In this document: positions 1-57,423 of the stretch, piece by piece
Layout of the letters: the number at the start of each line of letters is the position of its first letter
Numbering within the stretch: the first letter of the stretch is position 1
Assembly (NCBI GenBank): GCA_017524405.1
Contig: JAFWSJ010000002.1
Span: forward strand, 1-64,000
Direction: 5' to 3'
DNA length: 64,000 nt
DNA from: Candidatus Saccharimonadota bacterium
GTDB taxonomy: Bacteria; Patescibacteriota; Saccharimonadia; Saccharimonadales; Saccharimonadaceae
Program-made: the position numbers and the translations under genes
The notes under the pieces: generated by a model
What the model saw: only the letters and a program-made list of their open reading frames with translations
Database searches by the model: none
What the model was told of the DNA's origin: nothing

Positions 1-1225
1 ACGCACTCTTTAAATGAATGGCTGCTTCTAAGCCAACATCCTAGCTGTTTAAGAAATCTCACCTTGTTTCCCACTTAGTATTAATTAGGGACCTTAGACG
101 ATGGTCTGGGCTGTTTCCCTTTTGAGCGACGAGCTTAGCCCCGCCGTTCTGACTGCCGTGATTGCACACCTAGTATTCGTAGTTTGATAAGGATGGGTAC
201 CCTTGCGGGCCCCAGACCTTTTCAGAGCTCTACCCCTAGATGCTACTACACAACGCTAGCCCTAAAGCTATTTCGAGGAGAACCAGCTATCTCCGAGTTC
301 GATTGGCATTTCACCGCTAACCACAAGTCATCCAAGCACTTTACTGCGTACCCTGGTGCGGTCCTCCACTGCGTGTTACCGCAGCTTCAACCTGCTCATG
401 GTTAGGTCACCCGGTTTCGGGTCTAATACTGCTGACTTGTCGCCCTATTCAGGCTCGCTTTCACTGTGGCTCCATCATCTGACTTAGCCTCGCCGAAAAA
501 ATTAACTCGCTGGATCGTTCTACAAAAAGCACGCCGTCACCCTTGCGGGCTCCGACACGTTGTAGGCACTGAGTTTCAGGATCTATTTCACTCCCCTCCC
601 GGGGTTCTTTTCACCTTTCCATCACTGTACTAGTTCGCTATCGATCATTTGCAATATTTAGTCTTGGCAGGTGGTCCTGCCAGATTCAAACAGGGTTTCT
701 CGTGCCCCGTCCTACTTGTGAAAACACATATAAGTTCTAATAGTTGTTTTCGCATACTGGGCTTTCACCATCTTTGGCGCGCCATTCAAACGCTTCCGCT
801 AACAACTACGAATCTTACCCATTCAGTTAACGCTGATGGTTTTTATGCCGAACGGTCAAGCAAGCTCAACTGCTCAGCATAAAAATTGTGTAAACACGCA
901 ACACCCCTGATAACTCTGGTCGTTAAACCGTAAGGTTATCTTGAGGTTTAGACTATTCCAATTTCGCTCGCCACTACTTTCGGAATCATTGGTTATTTTC
1001 TTTTCCTCAACCTACTAAGATGATTCAGTTCGGCTGGTACCCGTCTCATTACCCTATGTGTTCAGGTAACGGCAATACAACATGACTTGTATTAGGTTTC
1101 CCCATTCGGAAATCTCCGGATCAAAGCTTGTTCTCAGCTACCCGAAGCTTATCGCAGAGTTCTACGTCCTTCATCGGTTGCAAATGTCAAGGCATCCACT
1201 ATCAGTGCCCTTATGTACCTTTTTA
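1..1225 (-). rRNA. rrl: 23S ribosomal RNA, 5' part (cut by window edge)
   Basis: Read on the minus strand this is the 5' third of 23S rRNA. The conserved stretches near the 5' end (GATGAAGGACGT, the CTGCGATAAGC region and the TTTCCGAATGGGGAAACC block) lie at about 1080-1190, and the conserved domain II blocks follow down to base 1. The gene continues past the left edge of the window. The 5' end at about 1225 is estimated from family homology. I see no intron-like ORF or obvious large insertion in the visible part. No 16S gene or spacer tRNA lies upstream; the next gene is an aminopeptidase. ORFs on either strand here are chance frames within rRNA. Confidence 0.95.
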
Positions 1226-15321: not shown

Positions 15322-16491
15322 TTAGACTTGGTCGAGGCTAGTTAGGCTAGCGTGGAAAGCATTTTCGGCGAGGATATCGCGATATCTCTCGACGGATTCG
15401 TAATGGCCAGTGCGTTCTAGAATATCGGCGGCGAGGTCGTAGCGCGAGCAGTCGTTGCGAGCGAGCTCATCAAGCGGCGTAGTAGTCGAACCTTCGTCAT
15501 TGTAGCCATGGAGCGAAACGCGCTTCATATCGGTGTAGCGCGAGAGAATGCCACGCATTGTCTCGGTATAGCCATGGAAGTTAAAGACGATTGGCTTATC
15601 AAGCGTGAAATAATCATCGAAGTCGCCAGGTTTTAGCTTACTCGCAGTCGTACCGATGGCGCCATAGGAAAGCGCGGCGACGTTCACGAAGCGAACCTTG
15701 AGCTCTGGAGCGTCCTTCTTCGCGAGTTCAATCGCAGCAAGCGCCTCGCGGGTTGGAATATCGCCGGCTGCTGCTACTACGATATCCGGATCGTCATCGG
15801 AGGCGAACTGGAAGATTGAGCAGCCCTGCTCGAGCTGGAAGCGTGCATGGTTAATGTCGATCCAACGCGGAAGATCAATCTTATTGAAAGTCGTGAGATT
15901 AACGACGTTCTTCGAGGTTTTCATATATTCCCAGACCGCATGGGCGGCGATGTCGTCCACTGGGAAGAAACAATTCACGAGATTACTTGGCTTCGCGAGG
16001 AGATTCGAGATGAGAGCTGGGTTCTGATGTGTGTAGCCATTATGGTCCTGGCGCTGCCAGCAAGAAGTCGATAGGAGATTCAGCGCGCTGACATCACGAC
16101 GCCATTCGATCTGCTTGCTTTGAGACAGGAATTTGAGATGCTGGTCGAGCTGGGAAGAAACGATTGGGAAGAACGATTCATAGGAAGTCATGCAGCCAGA
16201 GCCGCCAGTGAGAATATGCCCCGCCATCACGGCGAACAACGTATTTTCCGACAACATTTCGATAACGTGTCCGTTCGCGGCAAGCTTGAGGTCCCACGGC
16301 TTCATCTCGAGTGCCCAAGCGCGTTCGGTCGCATCAAAAACTTCCTCCATCTTATTCGACGTAGTTTCGTCTGGCGAGAAGAAATAGAAATCCTTGTTCT
16401 GGTAGAGCTCCTCGCGCACGCATTCGCCGAATGCGTCGGCAATTGAATGCTCTTCTTTTCCGGGCTCGTCAATCGTTATGGGCAAATTCAT
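15322..16491 (-). CDS. xfp: Phosphoketolase, C-terminal half (Pyr and C-terminal domains)
   Basis: A 389-residue protein matching the second half of xylulose-5-P/fructose-6-P phosphoketolase: PDETTSNKM, the SYESFF block, WRQDHNG-like (QRQDHNGYTHQNP), AAAGDIPTREAL, and the C-terminal GYNDEGSTTTPLDEL. In known single-chain enzymes (about 800 residues) this follows the thiamine-diphosphate PP domain in the same chain. Here it is a separate gene: the start at 16491 has its own AAGGAG site 7 nt upstream (16504-16499) and overlaps the N-terminal gene by 23 nt in another frame. All conserved blocks are intact, so a two-subunit enzyme is more likely than a pseudogene. Confidence 0.88.
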   Translation of the reverse strand: MNLPITIDEPGKEEHSIADAFGECVREELYQNKDFYFFSPDETTSNKMEEVFDATERAWALEMKPWDLKLAANGHVIEMLSENTLFAVMAGHILTGGSGCMTSYESFFPIVSSQLDQHLKFLSQSKQIEWRRDVSALNLLSTSCWQRQDHNGYTHQNPALISNLLAKPSNLVNCFFPVDDIAAHAVWEYMKTSKNVVNLTTFNKIDLPRWIDINHARFQLEQGCSIFQFASDDDPDIVVAAAGDIPTREALAAIELAKKDAPELKVRFVNVAALSYGAIGTTASKLKPGDFDDYFTLDKPIVFNFHGYTETMRGILSRYTDMKRVSLHGYNDEGSTTTPLDELARNDCSRYDLAADILERTGHYESVERYRDILAENAFHASLTSLDQV

Positions 16492-17410
16492 GGAATAACT
16501 CCTTAAAATGATAACTTCTAAGCCAGTTTTCGAGCATTTCGAGCTGATGACGATCAGTCTTTGCCTTCGGGAGCGGGACCTGATGCGAGGCATAGTTGCC
16601 TTCGAGCTTCACGCCGTCCACTTCCTTCGGACAACCATAGCCTTTTGGCGTCTTCATAACAATGAAACTATGTGGGTTCAGATTCTTGAGGGCCGACTGG
16701 AACTCGTCAATATCAAGGCCATTCACGACGACCGGATCGAAGCCGAAGCCACGAAGCATCTGCATGAGTTCGCGTTCGCTGCTGCGGCCATAAATCGTTG
16801 GGGCGGAAATCTTGTAGCCGTTCAGATGAAGAATCGGGAGGACACGACCATTGTCGCTGGTCGCAAGAAGCTTGTTGAGGTTGAGGCTAGCAAGTGCCGT
16901 GGCAGTTTCGAGCTCGCCGTCGCCAATGAGGACTGCGATAAACTTTTCCGGCTTGCCGAGCGCAGCGCCATAGGCGGCAGCTAGCGCGTAGCCAAGTTCC
17001 CCGCCCTCAGAAATAACGCCGGGCGTCATTGGGCTAGCATGCGACGGAAAACCATACGGCCAGGAAAAACGACGACACAAAAACTCTAGGCCACGCTTGT
17101 CTGGCGTAGCTTCTGGGCACACTTCGTGCAAATCGCCATCGTAGTAGAGGTTGGCCTGAAGTGCTGGGAAACCATGACCCGGGCCAAGAATAAACTGCAT
17201 TTCTGGAAAAACCGCCTTAAGGTTGGCATAGGCACGGTTAATGCCTGGGCAAGAGCCCCAGTGACCAAGCAGGCGCGGCTTCACGTCAGTTGGATCAAGC
17301 GGCGTATCGAGCAAGAAATTATCCTGCAAAAAGATTTGCGCAACAGAAAGATAGTCGCAAAAAGCGATGCGTTTTTTAATCCGAGAGACATCGATGCCCG
17401 ACCCGTTCAT
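16469..17410 (-). CDS. xfp: Phosphoketolase, N-terminal half (PP domain)
   Basis: A 313-residue protein matching the first half of phosphoketolase, which cleaves xylulose-5-P or fructose-6-P to acetyl-phosphate. Blocks seen: YLSVAQIFL, GHWG (residues 49-52), GPGHG (76-80), SHASPMTPGVISEGGELGYAL, the thiamine-diphosphate/metal motif GDGELET (163-169) and ILHLNGYKISAPTI. It ends just after NWLRSYHFKELF, the point where known enzymes enter the linker to the Pyr domain, and that linker is missing. A TAAAAT box lies 7 nt before the ATG (leaderless). Acts with the C-terminal half at 15322 and feeds AckA and Pta. Confidence 0.88.
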   Translation of the reverse strand: MNGSGIDVSRIKKRIAFCDYLSVAQIFLQDNFLLDTPLDPTDVKPRLLGHWGSCPGINRAYANLKAVFPEMQFILGPGHGFPALQANLYYDGDLHEVCPEATPDKRGLEFLCRRFSWPYGFPSHASPMTPGVISEGGELGYALAAAYGAALGKPEKFIAVLIGDGELETATALASLNLNKLLATSDNGRVLPILHLNGYKISAPTIYGRSSERELMQMLRGFGFDPVVVNGLDIDEFQSALKNLNPHSFIVMKTPKGYGCPKEVDGVKLEGNYASHQVPLPKAKTDRHQLEMLENWLRSYHFKELFHEFAHND

Positions 17411-19561: not shown

Positions 19562-19637
19562 AGGGGCGTAGCTCAGTTGGTAGAGCACTGGTCTCCAAAA
19601 CCAGGTGTCGCGAGTTCGAGTCTTGCCGCCCCTGCCA
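19562..19637 (+). tRNA. trpT: tRNA-Trp (anticodon CCA)
   Basis: Complete cloverleaf: acceptor stem AGGGGCG/CGCCCCT, D arm GCTCAGTTGGTAGAGC, anticodon stem CTGGT/ACCAG with loop CTCCAAA (anticodon CCA at 19595-19597), and a T arm GCGAGTTCGAGTCTTGC. Discriminator G and an encoded CCA end follow. A TATAAT box lies about 15 nt upstream. A CCA anticodon reading only UGG fits the standard code with UGA as stop. Confidence 0.98.
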
Positions 19638-19696
19638 AGCAATCGGGCACTTTTCTTCAAAAGAAAAGTTCCCGACGTCAAAAGAACTCATTATGA

Positions 19697-19731
19697 AAAA
19701 GATTCCAGGCGCATGTCCTGGAATCTTTTTG
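19697..19731. terminator. Bidirectional terminator after tRNA-Trp
   Basis: A 14-bp stem AAAAAGATTCCAGG/CCTGGAATCTTTTT with a 7-nt loop, between the tRNA and the convergent gene ending at 19773. Confidence 0.9.
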
Positions 19732-19772
19732 ATTATAGTTAGGCGTATGCCCTAACTTCTTTTTGCCTTTGA

Positions 19773-20306
19773 TTATTTCTTGTAGATTTCGACGTTGTAG
19801 AGCTTGCCGCCCATCATCGTGATGTCGATGCCGTAGCGAAGGTCGGCGTAAGTCAGATAGCGATAATGGCCGAAGTTCGTGATGCGCGTGTAGCCGAAAT
19901 AAGTGGCAAAATCTGAGATTGTCGCGAGCGGATAACCGCGGTATCTCAGCGAAACATCGTCAAAACTAGCGCCGTCGGTCGTCGTAAAGAAGCCGAGACG
20001 ACTAATTCTTCCCTCCGAATCTAGCGCGAACAAGATATTATTCCAAGAATAGCTATAGTTTGGATCGACGATAATATTATCGCGCACCTCGCGCTCCGGT
20101 TCTTCCCCGAGAAATAGCCCATTCAGGCTGATTTTGGAGTAATCCACCTCTGCATCGAGGGCATTATTGCGCCGGACGCGGTTCGAAAGCACCACGATAA
20201 CATCGAGAACGACTAGCAAAACGAGAAAAAATAGCATCACGATCCAAAACAAACGCATGCGGCGACGCATTGGTTCGTAAGAACGGCGCATTTTTCGCTT
20301 AGCCAT
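19773..20306 (-). CDS. Single-pass membrane protein, unknown
   Basis: A 177-residue protein with a strongly basic cytoplasmic head (MAKRKMRRSYEPMRRRMR), one membrane helix (about residues 18-41) and an extracytoplasmic domain of about 130 residues rich in Tyr and Asp. The outer domain has no recognised motif. The start is supported by an AAGGGAAGG site and a TATAAT promoter about 30 nt upstream, so this gene is not leaderless. It is divergent from the RNA array. Confidence 0.75.
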   Translation of the reverse strand: MAKRKMRRSYEPMRRRMRLFWIVMLFFLVLLVVLDVIVVLSNRVRRNNALDAEVDYSKISLNGLFLGEEPEREVRDNIIVDPNYSYSWNNILFALDSEGRISRLGFFTTTDGASFDDVSLRYRGYPLATISDFATYFGYTRITNFGHYRYLTYADLRYGIDITMMGGKLYNVEIYKK

Positions 20307-20362: not shown

Positions 20363-20391
20363 TTGACAATTTTTGCGAAGTGTGCTATAAT
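20363..20391 (+). promoter_or_regulatory. Promoter of RNA unit A
   Basis: TTGACA (20363-20368) and TATAAT (20386-20391) with exactly 17 nt between them, a near-consensus promoter. Confidence 0.88.
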
Positions 20392-20595
20392 GAGTGTAAG
20401 CATGTATCTCATGCCCGGTTTTTGGGCTACATAACCTGAGATTCTACCCCTAGATCGAGGTCCCAAAAACTAAATTATACTGACAGTGTCAGGGTTCCTT
20501 ACGAGAACAGAGACAGAAAGAGTTGAAAAACGTGCACCTTCTATGTGCGATTTTTATAAACTTTTCTTGCATCAAGAAAAGCGAGGTGAACAACT

Positions 20596-20673
20596 ATGAA
20601 GAACGATAAGGAACAGAGGGGGTTGTACGTTCCCTCCTCTTATAGCAACAACTCTTCAAAACAAGTCTCATAG
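20596..20673 (+). CDS. Micro-ORF, 25 residues
   Basis: ATG at 20596 with a GAGGTG site (20583-20588) directly behind a 9-bp hairpin, encoding 25 polar residues beginning MKNDKEQRG and ending in a Ser/Asn-rich tail, stop TAG. It is the only ORF in the array with a plausible ribosome site. It could be a leader peptide or a small regulatory peptide. Coding is uncertain at this length. Confidence 0.4.
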   Translation: MKNDKEQRGLYVPSSYSNNSSKQVS

Positions 20674-20712
20674 CCAAGTCGGCCACCACAGAGCTGACAA
20701 ACAAATCTAACG

Positions 20713-20746
20713 AGCCTCCCGACGACGTATGTCTAAGGAGGCTTTT
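20713..20746 (+). terminator. Terminator of RNA unit A
   Basis: Stem AGCCTCC/GGAGGCT (20713-20719 with 20737-20743), 17-nt loop, followed by a short T run. The next promoter begins 4 nt later. Confidence 0.7.
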
Positions 20747-20749
20747 CTA

Positions 20750-20777
20750 TTGACTTTTTCAAAAAATCATATATAAT
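20750..20777 (+). promoter_or_regulatory. Promoter of RNA unit B
   Basis: TTGACT (20750-20755) and TATAAT (20772-20777), 16-nt spacer; the TTGACTTTTT class. Confidence 0.82.
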
Positions 20778-20783
20778 AACTCT

Positions 20784-21027
20784 TGCGGAATCGTTAAGAA
20801 TAATACCCTTTTGTAGCACTTAACCGGGTTCCGCGTGGAACGTAGCTGCTTTTTTACAAACGAATGACCATATATTACCGACCCTTTCTGACGACGCGAT
20901 GCAGGGTCTGAGATTTTTCTACAACAATTCAATCTCACATTCGTCTCTCATAGAACGCCTTTGGGCAGCTATTAGTACTATTGACGCCAGCGTTCGGCGG
21001 GCCCCGCAGTTTATTTGCGGGGTTTTT
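20784..21027 (+). ncRNA. RNA unit B: three-way-junction RNA
   Basis: About 244 nt with no ORF having a ribosome site. The 5' hairpin is GCGGAA/TTCCGC (20785-20790 with 20829-20834) stacked on GTTAAG/CTTAAC (20793-20798 with 20819-20824). A second domain is closed by ACGAATG/CATTCGT (20860-20866 with 20938-20944) and encloses GACCCT/AGGGTC (20880-20885 with 20903-20908) and TGAGATT/AATCTCA (20909-20915 with 20931-20937). The helices abut without gaps at 20908/20909 and 20937/20938, a strict three-way junction. CGCC/GGCG and the terminator follow. Looks like an independent non-coding RNA of unknown family. Confidence 0.65.
21002..21027 (+). terminator. Terminator of RNA unit B
   Basis: CCCCGCA/TGCGGGG stem (21002-21008 with 21016-21022), 7-nt loop, five T. 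The next promoter starts 4 nt later. Confidence 0.92.
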
Positions 21028-21030
21028 AAA

Positions 21031-21058
21031 TTGACTTTTTGCGAAAAATAGGTATAAT
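21031..21058 (+). promoter_or_regulatory. Promoter of RNA unit C
   Basis: TTGACT (21031-21036) and TATAAT (21053-21058), 16-nt spacer; TTGACTTTTT class. Confidence 0.85.
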
Positions 21059-21064
21059 TTGCGG

Positions 21065-21289
21065 CAAGAGCGCCGCCTGATAGCTTCCGCGGTGCTTGCT
21101 TCTATATATAAGAGTCGATTGCGTAGCTAAAAAGAGCCGATCTATGGGCAGAACAAAAATTACTCCTTTCTAAAGATAAGATCGTTTCGTATTAGGTTAC
21201 CGCATTTTTCGTCTGTTAGGAGATATATATCTTCAGCAATTGACTCTGGCTCTTTTGGGTCCTGCATCTTCGGATACAGGACCTTTTTT
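21065..21289 (+). ncRNA. RNA unit C: predicted pseudoknot with exposed anti-SD tract
   Basis: About 225 nt, no credible ORF. A 12-bp helix (21111-21122 with 21236-21247, one G-U) and a 9-bp helix AAAAGAGCC/GGCTCTTTT (21130-21138 with 21248-21256) interleave, so they form a long-range pseudoknot or two exclusive folds. CGATCT/AGATCG (21138-21143 with 21179-21184) closes a loop containing CTCCTTTCTAAAGA (21163-21176), which resembles the 3' tail of 16S rRNA and matches the shared leader at 8744 and 9301. A GCGGC/GCCGC hairpin overlaps the predicted 5' end. No known family recognised. Confidence 0.62.
21258..21289 (+). terminator. Terminator of RNA unit C
   Basis: GGTCCTG/CAGGACC stem (21258-21264 with 21277-21283) and six T. 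Its stem sequence resembles the unit D terminator (GGTCCTGCAT), suggesting the units are related by duplication. Confidence 0.92.
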
Positions 21290-21290
21290 A

Positions 21291-21318
21291 TTGACTTTTT
21301 TGATTTTTCGTATATAAT
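21291..21318 (+). promoter_or_regulatory. Promoter of RNA unit D
   Basis: TTGACT (21291-21296) and TATAAT (21313-21318), 16-nt spacer; TTGACTTTTT class. Confidence 0.85.
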
Positions 21319-21324
21319 AATCCT

Positions 21325-21572
21325 CAGAAAGCTTGCGCTCTGGAAGACGCAGGTTTTTGGCATGGGCTTTGGCCGCGTTTTTCATGTATTCATAAGTCAC
21401 CATTAGGTTAGCTTAAGGGATACCTCCAGACAATTTAATATTCAATTTCAAGTGCTACCGCAAAGTGCAATTTCGTTAGCCCGCGACCAAGCCCATGCCT
21501 ATTGCTCCTTTCTCGGCGTATATCGCATCTCCGAGAAGTGGGTCCTGCATCTTACGATGCAGGACCCTTTTT
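21325..21572 (+). ncRNA. RNA unit D: long-helix RNA with exposed anti-SD tract
   Basis: About 248 nt, no ORF with a ribosome site. A very strong long-range helix pairs GGCATGGGCTT with AAGCCCATGCC (21359-21369 with 21489-21499, 11 bp perfect), continuing after a bulge with GG/CC and CGCG/CGCG toward 21377 and 21482. It is followed by the single-stranded tract GCTCCTTTCT (21504-21513), a TCTCGG/CCGAGA hairpin (21511-21536) and the terminator. A small 5' hairpin (CTTGCG/CGCAGG) precedes the helix. The CTCCTTTCT tract is identical to that of unit C although the rest differs. Unknown family. Confidence 0.66.
21540..21572 (+). terminator. Terminator of RNA unit D
   Basis: A 12-bp perfect stem GGGTCCTGCATC/GATGCAGGACCC (21540-21551 with 21556-21567), TTAC loop, five T. 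Confidence 0.95.
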
Positions 21573-21573
21573 A

Positions 21574-21602
21574 TTGACTTTTTATCTGATAATTCTTAAG
21601 AT
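21574..21602 (+). promoter_or_regulatory. Promoter of the ABC exporter operon
   Basis: TTGACT (21574-21579) and TAAGAT (21597-21602), 17-nt spacer. The ATG at 21611 is about where transcription would start, so the mRNA is probably leaderless. It is the fifth promoter in a row at this locus. Confidence 0.65.
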
Positions 21603-21610
21603 TATATGGT

Positions 21611-23368
21611 ATGTTCCGCATTTTCCGAAACTTTACCAAGAGAGATTGTCTTTTTTTGATTGGCGGCGTTTTGCTCGTAGCTTCACAGGTGGGGCTCGAG
21701 CTAAAAATGCCAGATTTCATGTCCGAAATTACGCGCCTTGTCGAGACGCCGGGCAGCGATATTCGCGACATTTTATTAAATGGCGGGCTAATGTTGCTCT
21801 GCGCGCTCGGCGCATTCTTCGCGACGATTTTTGCCGGTTACTGCTTCGCGAGGGCGAGCGCCAGCCTTTCGATGAATGTGCGCAAAAAGCTTTTTGACAA
21901 GGTTGAAGAGCTTGACATGCACGAGGTGAAAAAGTTCTCGACGAGTAGCCTCATTACGCGCACGACGAATGACATCACGCAGATCCAAATGTTTGTGGCG
22001 ATGGGCGCGCAGATGCTGGTGCGCGCGCCGCTCACGGCGATTTGGGCAATCACGAAAATCGCTGGCAAGAGCTGGCAGTGGAGTACCGTAACGGCAATTG
22101 CGGTCGTGGTCCTACTTTCTGTTATGATTTCCGTTTTGTCGGTCGTGATTCCGCGTTTCAAAATTGTCCAAAAATTGACGGATCGTATCAATGGTGTTAC
22201 CCGCGAGCATTTGACTGGCATTCGAGTCGTCCGCGCGTTCAATGCAGAGAGATACCAAGAGCAGAAATTTGACAAGGTTAACCACGATCTCACTAGTACG
22301 CACCTCTTCAATGAGCGTATGCTTTCGCTGCTCTCGCCAGCGATGTATCTTGTGATGAACGGCGTCACGCTCGCGATTTATGTGACGGGCGCATATATCA
22401 TCGCAAACGCCGCGATGCCGGACAGGCTCGGGATTTTTTCGGACATGGTCGTGTTTTCGTCCTATGCAATTCATGTGATTTTTAGTTTCCTCATGGTCAC
22501 GATGGTACTAATGCTGATGCCGCGCGCGCAAGTTTCGGCTGGCCGCATTAACGAAGTGATGAAAGAAAAAATCACGATCAAGGATGGCAATTTTGACGAC
22601 GAGACCGCCGAAAAAGGCACGGTCGAATTCCGCAACGTTTCGTTTAAATACCCAGACGCCGAGGAATACTTGCTCCGCGGTATTTCATTCCGCGCCGAGA
22701 AGGGCGAGACGGTCGCATTTGTCGGTTCGACCGGCTCCGGCAAAACTACACTCGTCAATCTCATCCCGCGTTTTTACGATGCAACGAGCGGCGAGGTTTT
22801 CGTCGATGGCGTGAATGTGCGCGACTTTAAACAAGAAGCGCTACATAATCGCATCGCATATGTGCCGCAAAAAGCCGTGATGTTCGACGGCAGCGTTTCG
22901 TATAATGTAGCCTACGGCGACAATGGTCGCGAAAAGACAAGCGATACGGCCGTAAAGAAAGCTATCAAGACCGCGCAGGCTCAGCACTTCGTGGAGAAAA
23001 TGCCGGACAGCTACGACGCGCACATCGCGCAAGGCGGCACGAATATTTCTGGCGGACAGAAGCAGCGCCTCGCAATCGCACGCGCAATCGCACGTGACCC
23101 AGAAATCTATATTTTCGACGATAGCTTCTCTGCCCTCGACTTTAAAACCGACGCCGCGCTCCGCCACGAACTAAAGAAGCAGACTGGCGACGCGACGAAT
23201 CTCATTGTCGCGCAGCGCATCGGGACGATCATGCATGCCGATAAAATTCTCGTGCTCGACGAAGGCAAATGCGTCGGCATGGGCACCCACCAAGAACTCA
23301 TGAAGAATTGTCCAGTTTATCAGCAAATTGCATTGTCTCAGTTGACGGAAAAGGAGCTCAATGTTTAA
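21611..23368 (+). CDS. ABC exporter subunit with degenerate ATPase site
   Basis: A 585-residue half transporter: six membrane helices (about residues 15-310) and a nucleotide-binding domain with Walker A GSTGSGKTT, signature ISGGQKQRLAIARA and Walker B IYIFDDSFSALD. The residue after the Walker B Asp is Asp instead of the catalytic Glu, as in the non-catalytic site of heterodimeric exporters (TM287/288 or BmrCD type). It overlaps the next gene by 8 nt, its likely partner. Such pairs export drugs, lipids or peptides; the substrate is unknown. The first gene after the RNA array, with a leaderless start. Confidence 0.93.
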   Translation: MFRIFRNFTKRDCLFLIGGVLLVASQVGLELKMPDFMSEITRLVETPGSDIRDILLNGGLMLLCALGAFFATIFAGYCFARASASLSMNVRKKLFDKVEELDMHEVKKFSTSSLITRTTNDITQIQMFVAMGAQMLVRAPLTAIWAITKIAGKSWQWSTVTAIAVVVLLSVMISVLSVVIPRFKIVQKLTDRINGVTREHLTGIRVVRAFNAERYQEQKFDKVNHDLTSTHLFNERMLSLLSPAMYLVMNGVTLAIYVTGAYIIANAAMPDRLGIFSDMVVFSSYAIHVIFSFLMVTMVLMLMPRAQVSAGRINEVMKEKITIKDGNFDDETAEKGTVEFRNVSFKYPDAEEYLLRGISFRAEKGETVAFVGSTGSGKTTLVNLIPRFYDATSGEVFVDGVNVRDFKQEALHNRIAYVPQKAVMFDGSVSYNVAYGDNGREKTSDTAVKKAIKTAQAQHFVEKMPDSYDAHIAQGGTNISGGQKQRLAIARAIARDPEIYIFDDSFSALDFKTDAALRHELKKQTGDATNLIVAQRIGTIMHADKILVLDEGKCVGMGTHQELMKNCPVYQQIALSQLTEKELNV

Positions 23369-25148
23369 CGGCGGCAGAAAAAATCAGGCGGCAGAAAAGA
23401 GCAAAGATTTTGGCGCGTCGATTCGCAGGCTCTCGCGCGAGCTTCGCGGCGCGAAAATTCTCGTAATTCTCGCGATCGTTTTCTCAATTGGCGGCTCCGT
23501 ATTTACGATTCTTGCACCAAACAAAATCGCGACTTTGACCGACGAGATTAGCAAAGGACTCTTTGGTCCAATCGACATCAATGCAGTGTGGGCGGCGGCA
23601 ATTTTCATGATTTTGCTCTATGGCGGCGCGGCGCTCTTCGAACTCGCAGAAGGCCTCACAATGGCGCAGGCTTCGAACGGTTTCGCAAAAGAACTCCGCC
23701 GTCGCATTTCGCGCAAAATCAATCGCTTGCCACTCAAATTCTTCGACAATAATCAGACTGGTGATATTCTTTCGCGCGTCACGAACGATATCGACACGGT
23801 CGCGCAGAGTCTCGACAATTCCCTCGCGACTTTGACGAGCGAATCGTCCATCATGCTCGGCACAATTATCATGATGTTTATCACGAACTGGACAATGGCG
23901 CTCGTCGCAGTTGGCGCAAGCATTCTCGGTTTCATTGGCGTCGGCGCAATTCTCGGCAAATCACAGAAATATTTCGGCATGCGCCAAAAAGAACTCGGCA
24001 AACTCAACGCGCATATTGAAGAAATCTATTCGGGCCTGCTCGTCGTCAAAGCCTACAACGGCAAACGCGAGAGCGACAAAAAATTCGACCGGCTCAACAA
24101 GCGTGTCTACACGGCAAACTTGCGCAGTCAATTCTTGTCCGGTATCATGCCGCCAATCATGATTTTTATCGGCAACCTCGGCTATGTCGCAGTCTGCGTC
24201 ACGGGCGCATTACTCGTCACGAACAATGCCATCACATTCGGCACAATCATGGCCTTTATCGTTTACGTCAGACTCTTCACTTCCCCACTTTCGCGTATTG
24301 CGCAATCAATGCCCAGCCTGCAGGCTGCGGCAGCCGCGAGCGACCGTGTATTTGATTTCCTAGACGAAGACGAGATGAGCGACCAAAAAGAAATCGAAAC
24401 GCGCGTAGACAAAGACAAAATTCGCGGCGATATCGAGTTCGATCACGTGCGCTTTGGCTACAACGAAGACAAAACCATCATTAACGATTTTTCGGCCGAG
24501 GCAAAGGCCGGACAGAAAATCGCAATCGTTGGCCCAACCGGCGCCGGCAAAACTACGATGGTCAATCTCCTCATGAAATTCTACGAATTGCAGGACGGCG
24601 ACATTCGCATCGACGGAATTTCGACGCGCCGCATGAAACGCGAAGACGTTCACTCGCTCTTCACGATGGTACTACAGGACACTTGGATGTTCGCCGGCAC
24701 GCTGCGCGATAATATCGTCTACAACCGCAAGGGCGTGAGCGACGAAGAAATAATGAAAATTATGAAGACCGTCGGCCTTGAGCATTTCGTGAAGACTTTG
24801 CCGAAAGGTTTGTCGAGCGAAATAAGTGAGAGCGATTCGATTTCGGCTGGACAAAAGCAGCTCATCACGATCGCGCGCGGTATGGTCGAAGACGCACCGT
24901 TCCTCATCCTCGACGAAGCAACTTCGAATGTCGATACGCGCACGGAAGAGCTCGTCCAAAAAGCGATGGACAAACTCATGAAGGGCCGCACGTCATTCAT
25001 CATCGCGCATAGACTTTCGACGATCAAAAATGCAGACCTCATTCTCGTCATGAATGAAGGCGACATTGTTGAGTCCGGTACGCACGACCAACTTATGAAA
25101 CAAAAAGGCTTCTACGCCGAGCTGTATAACTCGCAATTTTCTCTGTAA
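23361..25148 (+). CDS. ABC exporter subunit, catalytic partner
   Basis: A 595-residue half transporter with an N-terminal membrane domain (about residues 30-320) and an ATPase with Walker A GPTGAGKTT, signature SISAGQKQLITIARG and a full Walker B FLILDEATSNVD including the catalytic Glu. The unusual SAGQ signature is common in this subfamily of heterodimeric exporters. An AAAGGAG-like site lies in the end of the upstream gene, and the 8-nt overlap indicates coupled translation. It pairs with the preceding subunit in the cytoplasmic membrane. Confidence 0.94.
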   Translation: MFNGGRKNQAAEKSKDFGASIRRLSRELRGAKILVILAIVFSIGGSVFTILAPNKIATLTDEISKGLFGPIDINAVWAAAIFMILLYGGAALFELAEGLTMAQASNGFAKELRRRISRKINRLPLKFFDNNQTGDILSRVTNDIDTVAQSLDNSLATLTSESSIMLGTIIMMFITNWTMALVAVGASILGFIGVGAILGKSQKYFGMRQKELGKLNAHIEEIYSGLLVVKAYNGKRESDKKFDRLNKRVYTANLRSQFLSGIMPPIMIFIGNLGYVAVCVTGALLVTNNAITFGTIMAFIVYVRLFTSPLSRIAQSMPSLQAAAAASDRVFDFLDEDEMSDQKEIETRVDKDKIRGDIEFDHVRFGYNEDKTIINDFSAEAKAGQKIAIVGPTGAGKTTMVNLLMKFYELQDGDIRIDGISTRRMKREDVHSLFTMVLQDTWMFAGTLRDNIVYNRKGVSDEEIMKIMKTVGLEHFVKTLPKGLSSEISESDSISAGQKQLITIARGMVEDAPFLILDEATSNVDTRTEELVQKAMDKLMKGRTSFIIAHRLSTIKNADLILVMNEGDIVESGTHDQLMKQKGFYAELYNSQFSL

Positions 25149-55839: not shown

Positions 55840-57423
55840 CTACTTGGCTTGGTGATAAAAATCTTTGCCTTTGAATGTATAGTAGACGGTTTCGCTGTCG
55901 GTTTTAATGCTAAAGTATTCATCTTTTCCGACCGACAATTGTCCATCGGGCAGCTGTTTTGCGCTCTTGCCTTTCGCGTCGATGAGGGCATGCTTGTCCA
56001 CTCCGTTCTCGCCAAAAATGAGTTTGCCGTCACGATAAAACTTGTACGAAGTATAGTTGCCAGACACAAGAACTTCGCCATCCGAGTTGAGCAAATCGCC
56101 GGTCTTGTTGACGAAGTCGAATGCGGAATAGTACTTGCCGTTACGCGAGATTGAGCTATATTTTTTCGAAATTGCCTTACCCTCTTTGTTGGCGAGGTAG
56201 TAGTACTCGTTAACTACGCCGGAGGTCGGATCGTTCACGATTATTCGCTCGTTCCCATCTAAGCCGAGCAGGCTGCCGCGATTTGTATTGAGCTCGAAGA
56301 GCTGATTGCCGTCGAGATCATATAGCGCAGCATGCTTTTCTTTGTTGTTGGCCACATAATAACCGCGGCTACGAACAAACGGCGCTACATCGGCGTTGAC
56401 GGATAGCTTCTCGGAGCCGTCAACGAAGATTGTAGCCTTGCCCTCTTTGGCATTAAACCGCGCATAATGTTTTTCGTCGAAAACGACCGTGTGATTATTG
56501 TCTTCGGTTAGATTCAGGTCGGTTATATCGAGGCCGCGCATAAGGAAGACTCCGTCATTTTTCGTGCAAGTCATATACTTGAACCCGTCAACCGAATCGG
56601 TCTCGTCTCTGAGCGCAATATTGCTACATTCTTCGCCATACTCCTTGATTTTTCCGTCTTTTACGACCGCCCAAACATTCTTGTCTCCTTCGGTGCCGCG
56701 AAGAACGAAAGTCTTCATGTCTTCCGATGTCGAGCTCAGACGATATGCGGCGTTCGTTTCTTGGTCTTTAATCTTGTTGAGAGTTTTATTATTAAAAATC
56801 ACGATATGGCCGTCATAGCTCATCGAAGTGGCCATTTTCTTGTTGTAAGTATTAAAGACCGGGCGGCTCTCGCTCCTAAAATCGAGTAACTTGCTGCCAG
56901 TAGCATTATATATAGAGTATTTGCCAGTTTCGGTCTCGACGGCTAGATATGGAGCACCGACCGCCTCGAAGGCCGAAACATAATTGTCGACAATAACATC
57001 GCCGTTGCCGTTTATAATAGTGTGTTTGCTGTCTTTATCGACCGCTTCAAAGAGACCGCCACGCGTTTCGAGATCCTCATAAGCGCCGAATTTGACCGTC
57101 ATGTCGCCGTTTTGGTTAATAATGCCATACTGGTTATCGGCATTGCGAACAAGCGAATGGCCGTTCACGAACGCGCTGGCAGATCTGAAAATGAAATCCG
57201 TTTTCTTTTCGCCTTTTTTATTGAAGAGCGCGTAATTCGAGCTCGTCGCACTCGTTTCGCGGATGAAGAATGCGTCGGAATCGTAAACAGTATGTTCTTC
57301 ACCGTCGCCATTTATGAGAAATAGCAGTCCGAGAACGACGCCCGCCGTCACAAGAACTGCTGCAGGCAGAATTAAAAGTTTTTTATCAAAACGTTTTTTC
57401 TTCGTAGACCTCTCTTGTTCCAT
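55840..57423 (-). CDS. Membrane-anchored WG-repeat-like protein
   Basis: A 527-residue protein with a basic head, one membrane helix (about residues 15-37, LLILPAAVLVTAGVVLGLLFLI) and a long extracytoplasmic beta-rich region. Repeats of about 30-45 residues carry motifs such as YALFNKKGEKKTDF, YGIINQNGDMTVKF and HTIINGNGDVIVDN, which resemble WG (KWG) repeats or beta-propeller blades. Role unknown; a ligand-binding surface protein is plausible. TATAAT (57436-57431) is 7 nt before the ATG, so it is leaderless. Divergent from giant surface protein 2. Confidence 0.8.
   Translation of the reverse strand: MEQERSTKKKRFDKKLLILPAAVLVTAGVVLGLLFLINGDGEEHTVYDSDAFFIRETSATSSNYALFNKKGEKKTDFIFRSASAFVNGHSLVRNADNQYGIINQNGDMTVKFGAYEDLETRGGLFEAVDKDSKHTIINGNGDVIVDNYVSAFEAVGAPYLAVETETGKYSIYNATGSKLLDFRSESRPVFNTYNKKMATSMSYDGHIVIFNNKTLNKIKDQETNAAYRLSSTSEDMKTFVLRGTEGDKNVWAVVKDGKIKEYGEECSNIALRDETDSVDGFKYMTCTKNDGVFLMRGLDITDLNLTEDNNHTVVFDEKHYARFNAKEGKATIFVDGSEKLSVNADVAPFVRSRGYYVANNKEKHAALYDLDGNQLFELNTNRGSLLGLDGNERIIVNDPTSGVVNEYYYLANKEGKAISKKYSSISRNGKYYSAFDFVNKTGDLLNSDGEVLVSGNYTSYKFYRDGKLIFGENGVDKHALIDAKGKSAKQLPDGQLSVGKDEYFSIKTDSETVYYTFKGKDFYHQAK

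Follow-up and report, generated by a model that had tools for sequence, protein, structure and literature searches.

Four head-to-tail units of predicted non-coding RNA (ncRNA) occupy positions 20363-21573 of the window (the whole stretch of DNA analysed here, 64,000 nucleotides from a genome, G000, of an uncultured gut Saccharibacteria genus), between a membrane-protein gene on the minus strand and an ABC exporter. I consider it rather probable that these are four independent ncRNA genes of a genus-specific multi-copy family, which would act in trans and block ribosome-binding sites with an exposed anti-Shine-Dalgarno (anti-SD) tract. In computational comparisons across the genus, gene architecture, synteny and RNA structure are conserved, open reading frames are not, and the tract is enriched, strand-biased and open. 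As an exposed tract of this kind mimics the mRNA-binding tail of the ribosome, the predicted transcripts are likely to repress sets of mRNAs, the ribosome-binding sites of which they would cover. The locus and its landmarks are laid out as follows.

19562-19637, plus strand: tRNA-Trp gene, which marks the locus on its upstream side; directly behind it stands an sRNA promoter in G068 and G031.
19773-20306, minus strand: predicted membrane protein of 177 amino acids, without a Pfam family; a divergent, variable neighbour that is missing at the same place in G068.
20363-20391, plus strand: promoter of unit A, TTGACA-17-TATAAT with an extended -10, 12/12 consensus.
20398-20748, plus strand: unit A, a predicted ncRNA, ~351 nt, terminator at about 20711-20742 and T run; orthologues in G068 and G023.
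20633-20638, plus strand: CCTCCT of unit A, a weak anti-SD candidate since the model pairs most of it.
20750-20777, plus strand: promoter of unit B, 11/12 consensus.
20784-21030, plus strand: unit B, a predicted ncRNA, ~247 nt, terminator at 21001-21023 and T run.
20883-20889, plus strand: CCTTTCT tract in unit B, a partial anti-SD match, partly paired.
21031-21058, plus strand: promoter of unit C, 11/12 consensus.
21065-21289, plus strand: unit C, a predicted ncRNA, ~225 nt, terminator at 21257-21284 and T run.
21163-21171, plus strand: anti-SD tract CTCCTTTCT of unit C.
21291-21318, plus strand: promoter of unit D, 11/12 consensus.
21325-21572, plus strand: unit D, a predicted ncRNA, ~248 nt, terminator at 21540-21567 and T run.
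21422-21427, plus strand: ACCTCC, a second anti-SD-like tract in unit D.
21505-21513, plus strand: anti-SD tract CTCCTTTCT of unit D, with CAT 8 nt upstream in anti-start-codon register.
21574-21602, plus strand: promoter of the ABC exporter, directly behind the last T run.
21611-23368, plus strand: ABC exporter subunit 1, the downstream synteny landmark.
23361-25148, plus strand: ABC exporter subunit 2.

As a preliminary description of this DNA had claimed, each unit has its own promoter, matching 12 or 11 of the 12 consensus positions, and its own terminator (ending at about 20748, 21028, 21289 and 21572). The unit sizes given there (350, 244, 225 and 248 nt) are exact for the predicted transcripts C and D and are recomputed as 351 and 247 nt for A and B, and the next promoter indeed stands right behind each T run, at a distance of 1-3 nt instead of the 2-4 nt reported. 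The promoter matches do not result from chance, as the 898-kb genome contains 55 matches to TTGAC-N15-18-TATAAT and a single match to the reversed pattern; four of these 55 perfect matches fall in the array, within 956 bases. A second cluster of such promoters, at C11:93140-94009 of the same genome, was rejected as an sRNA array, as it consists of three consecutive small protein genes, small-membrane-protein-like and spaced ~420 nt apart; a perfect promoter and a strong SD sequence precede every one of them. Units C and D have in common the terminator core GGTCCTGCAT and the tract CTCCTTTCT, both of which had been described correctly, the tract without its anti-SD identity; the genus-wide range and the variable copy number of the units are new here.

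An orthologue of the exporter was sought in 45 genomes and its upstream region was read in 42, and 27 of these 42 congeners carry promoter-terminator units upstream of the exporter, often near tRNA-Trp, with a total of 44 units. There are five in G068 (Ca. Saccharibacteria MAG contig CAMJLD010000013), four in G000, two in each of ten genomes, and one each in G023 (CAMZEA010000005) and fourteen others; the 15 genomes without recognised units include G002 and G013, in which only a paralogue of the exporter was matched. Unit length ranges from 160 to 420 nt, with some boundaries in the other genomes set by eye, and blastn sorts the 44 units into 31 sequence clusters. In G068, the exporter of which is 97% identical to that of G000, the array comes immediately after tRNA-Trp, in the order A, B, D, E, C. 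The junction TTTTTATTGACTTTTT is recurrent at unit borders, and in G023 unit A is joined straight to the exporter promoter, an arrangement that looks like the recombination product of two TTTTTATTGACTTTTT-type junctions, or else like the ancestral state. The units are part of a fast-changing RNA locus across the genus.

The surroundings vary too. The stretch behind tRNA-Trp (19562-20306 in the window, and its counterparts in relatives) resembles an insertion hotspot with species-variable cargo: a membrane protein in some, an acidic coiled-coil protein or various other small proteins in others, and in still others no cargo. The ABC exporter (21611-25148) shares 58-65% identity with homologues from MAGs that carry a gut Bacilli or Clostridia label, and since it is about as close to these as to some congeners, horizontal transfer is suggested, or mislabelled bins. 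Other structured elements were seen near the exporter elsewhere in the genus. In G025, G015 and G003, AATTCGTAG and CTACGAATT close off a very stable 5' domain ~200 nt upstream; this domain has three inner hairpins, keeps the strings GAGAAGCCA and GCGGCTG in the three species and has no Rfam match. In G010 and G019 a similar leader, GCTGAAYA..AATG...CTG.CGGGGG.TCGGGA..TTTAATTTRGCAAAG, stands between the promoter and the gene, directly before the exporter ATG, and is possibly a cis-regulatory element.

Orthologous units are 50-70% identical (52-60% between G000 and G068), and as this is near the divergence at fourfold sites of the exporter (67% identity between G000 and G068, 56% between G000 and G023), most of the unit sequence seems to drift freely. 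Consensus folds lie below those of column-shuffled alignments in every orthologous set (z from -3.1 to -9.4; A -3.1, B -3.1, C -9.4, D -5.7, other clades -3.7 to -7.8) and each set contains 14-34 double (compensatory) changes, where the sets comprise 2-4 sequences and the MAFFT alignments are uncertain at 50-60% identity; many base pairs break in the sets of 3-4 sequences. Tested singly against dinucleotide shuffles, units A to D reach z-scores of -2.8, -2.8, -2.8 and -5.7, of which only -1.5 is left for B and only -1.1 for C when the terminator is removed, and over all 44 units the fold of the body has a mean z of -3.0 versus -0.2 for coding windows. I regard this as good but not overwhelming evidence for selection on RNA structure. 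A further observation concerns the first units of G012, G034, G026, G065, G018, G063, G029 and G030, where (A)TTACC/TC comes after a shared hairpin whose loop carries a G-run. This suggests a small pseudoknot in which GGG pairs with CCC; the hairpin is not seen in the same form in the units of G000.

The tract CTCCTTTCT is found in the window only twice, at 21163 and 21505 (0.49 expected). The consensus bacterial 16S 3' tail is CACCUCCUUUCU, to which CTCCTTTCT, and also CACCTCC, is identical. The label "anti-SD" rests on this general consensus and on SD usage in the genome, the host's own 16S tail being outside the assemblies: three pattern searches of these assemblies did not find a 16S 3' end, and the sole candidate, on contig C15 of G023, turned out to be the reverse strand of a gene start with an SD site. 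At the end of the contig a 23S rRNA gene is truncated (window 1-1224, minus strand).

In G000 alone the enrichment amounts to two 9-mers, and its strength comes from the genus. In 30 units from 13 genomes CTCCTTT occurs 12 times in sense and never in antisense orientation (0.79 expected), and CCTCC 22 times in sense and 4 times in antisense (6.5 expected). ACCTCC was counted in an independent set of 14 units outside the motif-discovery set (12 sense, 0 antisense, 0.99 expected) and again with one unit from each of its nine homologous groups (7 sense, 0 antisense, 0.72 expected), the latter count correcting only in part for the fact that related units are not independent. Compared with tracts of matched composition, the best tract of the unit is the more open one in 34 of 43 units (p = 9e-6), and in five orthologous pairs, the sequences of which are elsewhere ~50-60% identical, no identical stretch is longer than the one formed by the tract (C of G000/G068, where it is CTCCTTTCTAAAGATA; G018_1/G063_1; G018_2/G063_2; G012_1/G034_1; G034_1/G065_1). 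In units A and B of the window the anti-SD matches are short or paired, and therefore weak. Of 93 anti-SD-like sites, 13 have a CAT at a distance of 4-10 nt on their 5' side, compared with 8-14 in control windows, so that an anti-start-codon register is not enriched; in the window it is present in unit D only.

Among 387 ORFs sampled from 18 stretches (360 kb) and the window, 424 kb in total, 147 are preceded by SD sites (AGGAGG, GAAAGGAG) that are complementary to CTCCTTTCT, and in 92 the start codon closely follows a -10-like element, the division into SD-led and leaderless-like classes being heuristic. Such an element lies ~10 nt before the start codon of many genes in the window as well, e.g. 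16469-17410 and 55840-57423, both on the minus strand, which points to leaderless mRNAs beside SD-led ones, and the cell thus appears to use both modes of initiation. The exporter ATG (21611) follows its -10 hexamer by 8 nt, so that the predicted mRNA would be nearly leaderless. For the C and D tracts, duplex energies are lower at SD-led than at leaderless-like starts, as the motif dictates. The best single candidate target is C11:209740, encoding a protein of 164 amino acids, with 14 continuous base pairs to unit C; it was rejected as a conserved target, having one distant homologue only in the genus.

These observations could be brought together in a model in which the RNAs adopt multi-helix folds, each serving as a scaffold on which a CU-rich tract with the sequence of the 16S anti-SD tail is exposed. 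The tract would pair in trans with AAGGAG(G) of leadered mRNAs, by which ribosome entry would be blocked, and the bases flanking it would select the targets; separate promoters would let dose and specificity diversify through the gain and loss of units. As Hfq was not found in the genome, pairing would be Hfq-independent, as it is for most LhrC targets. A more far-reaching version, to which I assign only a slim chance, holds that the RNAs together mimic the 16S tail, favouring leaderless over SD-led mRNAs in translation, which would give this reduced genome, with its two modes of initiation, a global switch tuned by dose; the adjacent exporter is itself near-leaderless.

Several other explanations of the array have to be considered. 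The 25-codon ORF of unit A (20596-20673) is indeed present, as described before, and as it has a plausible SD sequence, the units could be genes for short peptides or leader peptides. This is very improbable, as the ORF has an early stop in G068 and encodes an unrelated peptide in G023, ORFs of at least 15 amino acids show no match between orthologous units (best E 0.37), indels are not multiples of three and substitutions keep base pairs. That the region is degenerating or chance intergenic sequence could be argued from the divergence of the units, which approximates the fourfold-site rate (52-60% vs. 67% for G000/G068), but this seems scarcely credible where much of the genus has preserved, at one and the same position, not only promoters and terminators but also the folds and the anti-SD tract, and it is contradicted by the strand-specific enrichment of the motif in the independent set. 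The units might also be cis-acting leaders or attenuators of the ABC exporter that have been duplicated, in line with the conserved exporter synteny and the orientation of all units toward the exporter. However, every unit has its own terminator, the last T run is followed by a separate promoter for the exporter, this promoter is identical in G000 and G068 despite different units, and some congeners have the exporter without units, so that I find this reading quite doubtful.

Another unlikely possibility is that the units are structured RNAs that bind protein, either RNA polymerase in the manner of 6S RNA or a protein titrated by a sponge, with the CU tract being incidental. Their length (160-420 nt) and high degree of structure would be unusual for simple antisense sRNAs, and the rest of the genome yielded no 6S RNA. 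However, the covariance model of 6S RNA (RF00013) has no match at the locus, nor has any other Rfam family, the shapes of the units differ and lack a common single hairpin with a central bubble, and the open anti-SD tract is often the most conserved element. In the Rfam search of the locus no known sRNA family, LhrC included, came above its own threshold, and permissive thresholds (locus and 24 relatives) gave chance-level matches only; a match to snR83 was rejected, being the hairpin of the unit D terminator. The tmRNA and RNase P RNA of the genome sit on contig C17 and neither matches the array; the preliminary description likewise could not match the units to tmRNA, RNase P or 6S RNA. Its view that the units form a dedicated locus of small RNAs, perhaps not yet described in this lineage, gains support from the synteny and covariation comparison: position and promoter-terminator architecture are conserved and substitutions preserve structure, which, with no conserved ORF and no Rfam family, argues for small-RNA genes.

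The trans-acting anti-SD RNAs proposed here may work like LhrC, the csRNAs, the CcsR/cuckoo RNAs and RsaE, the nearest systems by mechanism, an analogy by which neither membership nor homology is claimed. With the class of anti-SD sRNAs the units share an own promoter and intrinsic terminator, the lack of a conserved ORF, and an accessible SD-complementary tract conserved beyond background, the latter being weak for A and B individually. The LhrC family of Listeria monocytogenes comprises LhrC1-5, Rli22 and Rli33-1, four of them in one intergenic region, and through base-pairing of its single-stranded CU-rich motifs to AG-rich SD regions it blocks translation, mostly independently of Hfq (PMC13350326). 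Like LhrC, the units are multi-copy with exposed CU-rich SD-complementary motifs; however, LhrC1-5 are nearly identical to each other and consist of two stem-loops joined by a single strand, whereas the units are 225-351 nt long, multi-helical, and have almost no common sequence beyond the tract and the C/D terminator core. The CiaR-dependent csRNAs of streptococci, several per genome and variable in copy number, have their own promoters and terminators and an unpaired region in which stretches complementary to the SD sequence and to AUG are located (PMC3091779, PMC4507080). They measure 51-202 nt, are tied to the CiaR promoter motif and mostly have CAU in register, whereas the present units are in tandem, longer, and have ordinary sigma-70-type promoters and no enriched CAU spacing. 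On reading the unit promoters, which are plain TTGAC-TATAAT, no CiaR motif (TTTAAG direct repeat) was seen. The CcsR/cuckoo RNAs carry a CCUCCUCCC loop motif and are cut from one precursor that is co-transcribed with a DUF1127 gene, in contrast to the separate promoter and terminator of each unit here. In Rhodobacter and other alphaproteobacteria, CcsR1-4/cuckoo RNAs form a tandem array of four sRNAs (PMC10253847), and RsaE of Staphylococcus aureus is also among the nearest by mechanism (PMC9266662). No sequence relation was found between RsaE and the units. RsaE is a single sRNA, not an array.

A search of open-access papers found no description of regulatory sRNAs in Saccharibacteria or other bacteria of the candidate phyla radiation. 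If the family is as I read it, it would show that very small genomes invest more than 1 kb in riboregulation, apparently without Hfq. The locus shows an sRNA that keeps its effector tract and its folds while its other sequence and its copy number, from one to five, change, and could therefore serve as a natural series for the study of sRNA birth and loss.
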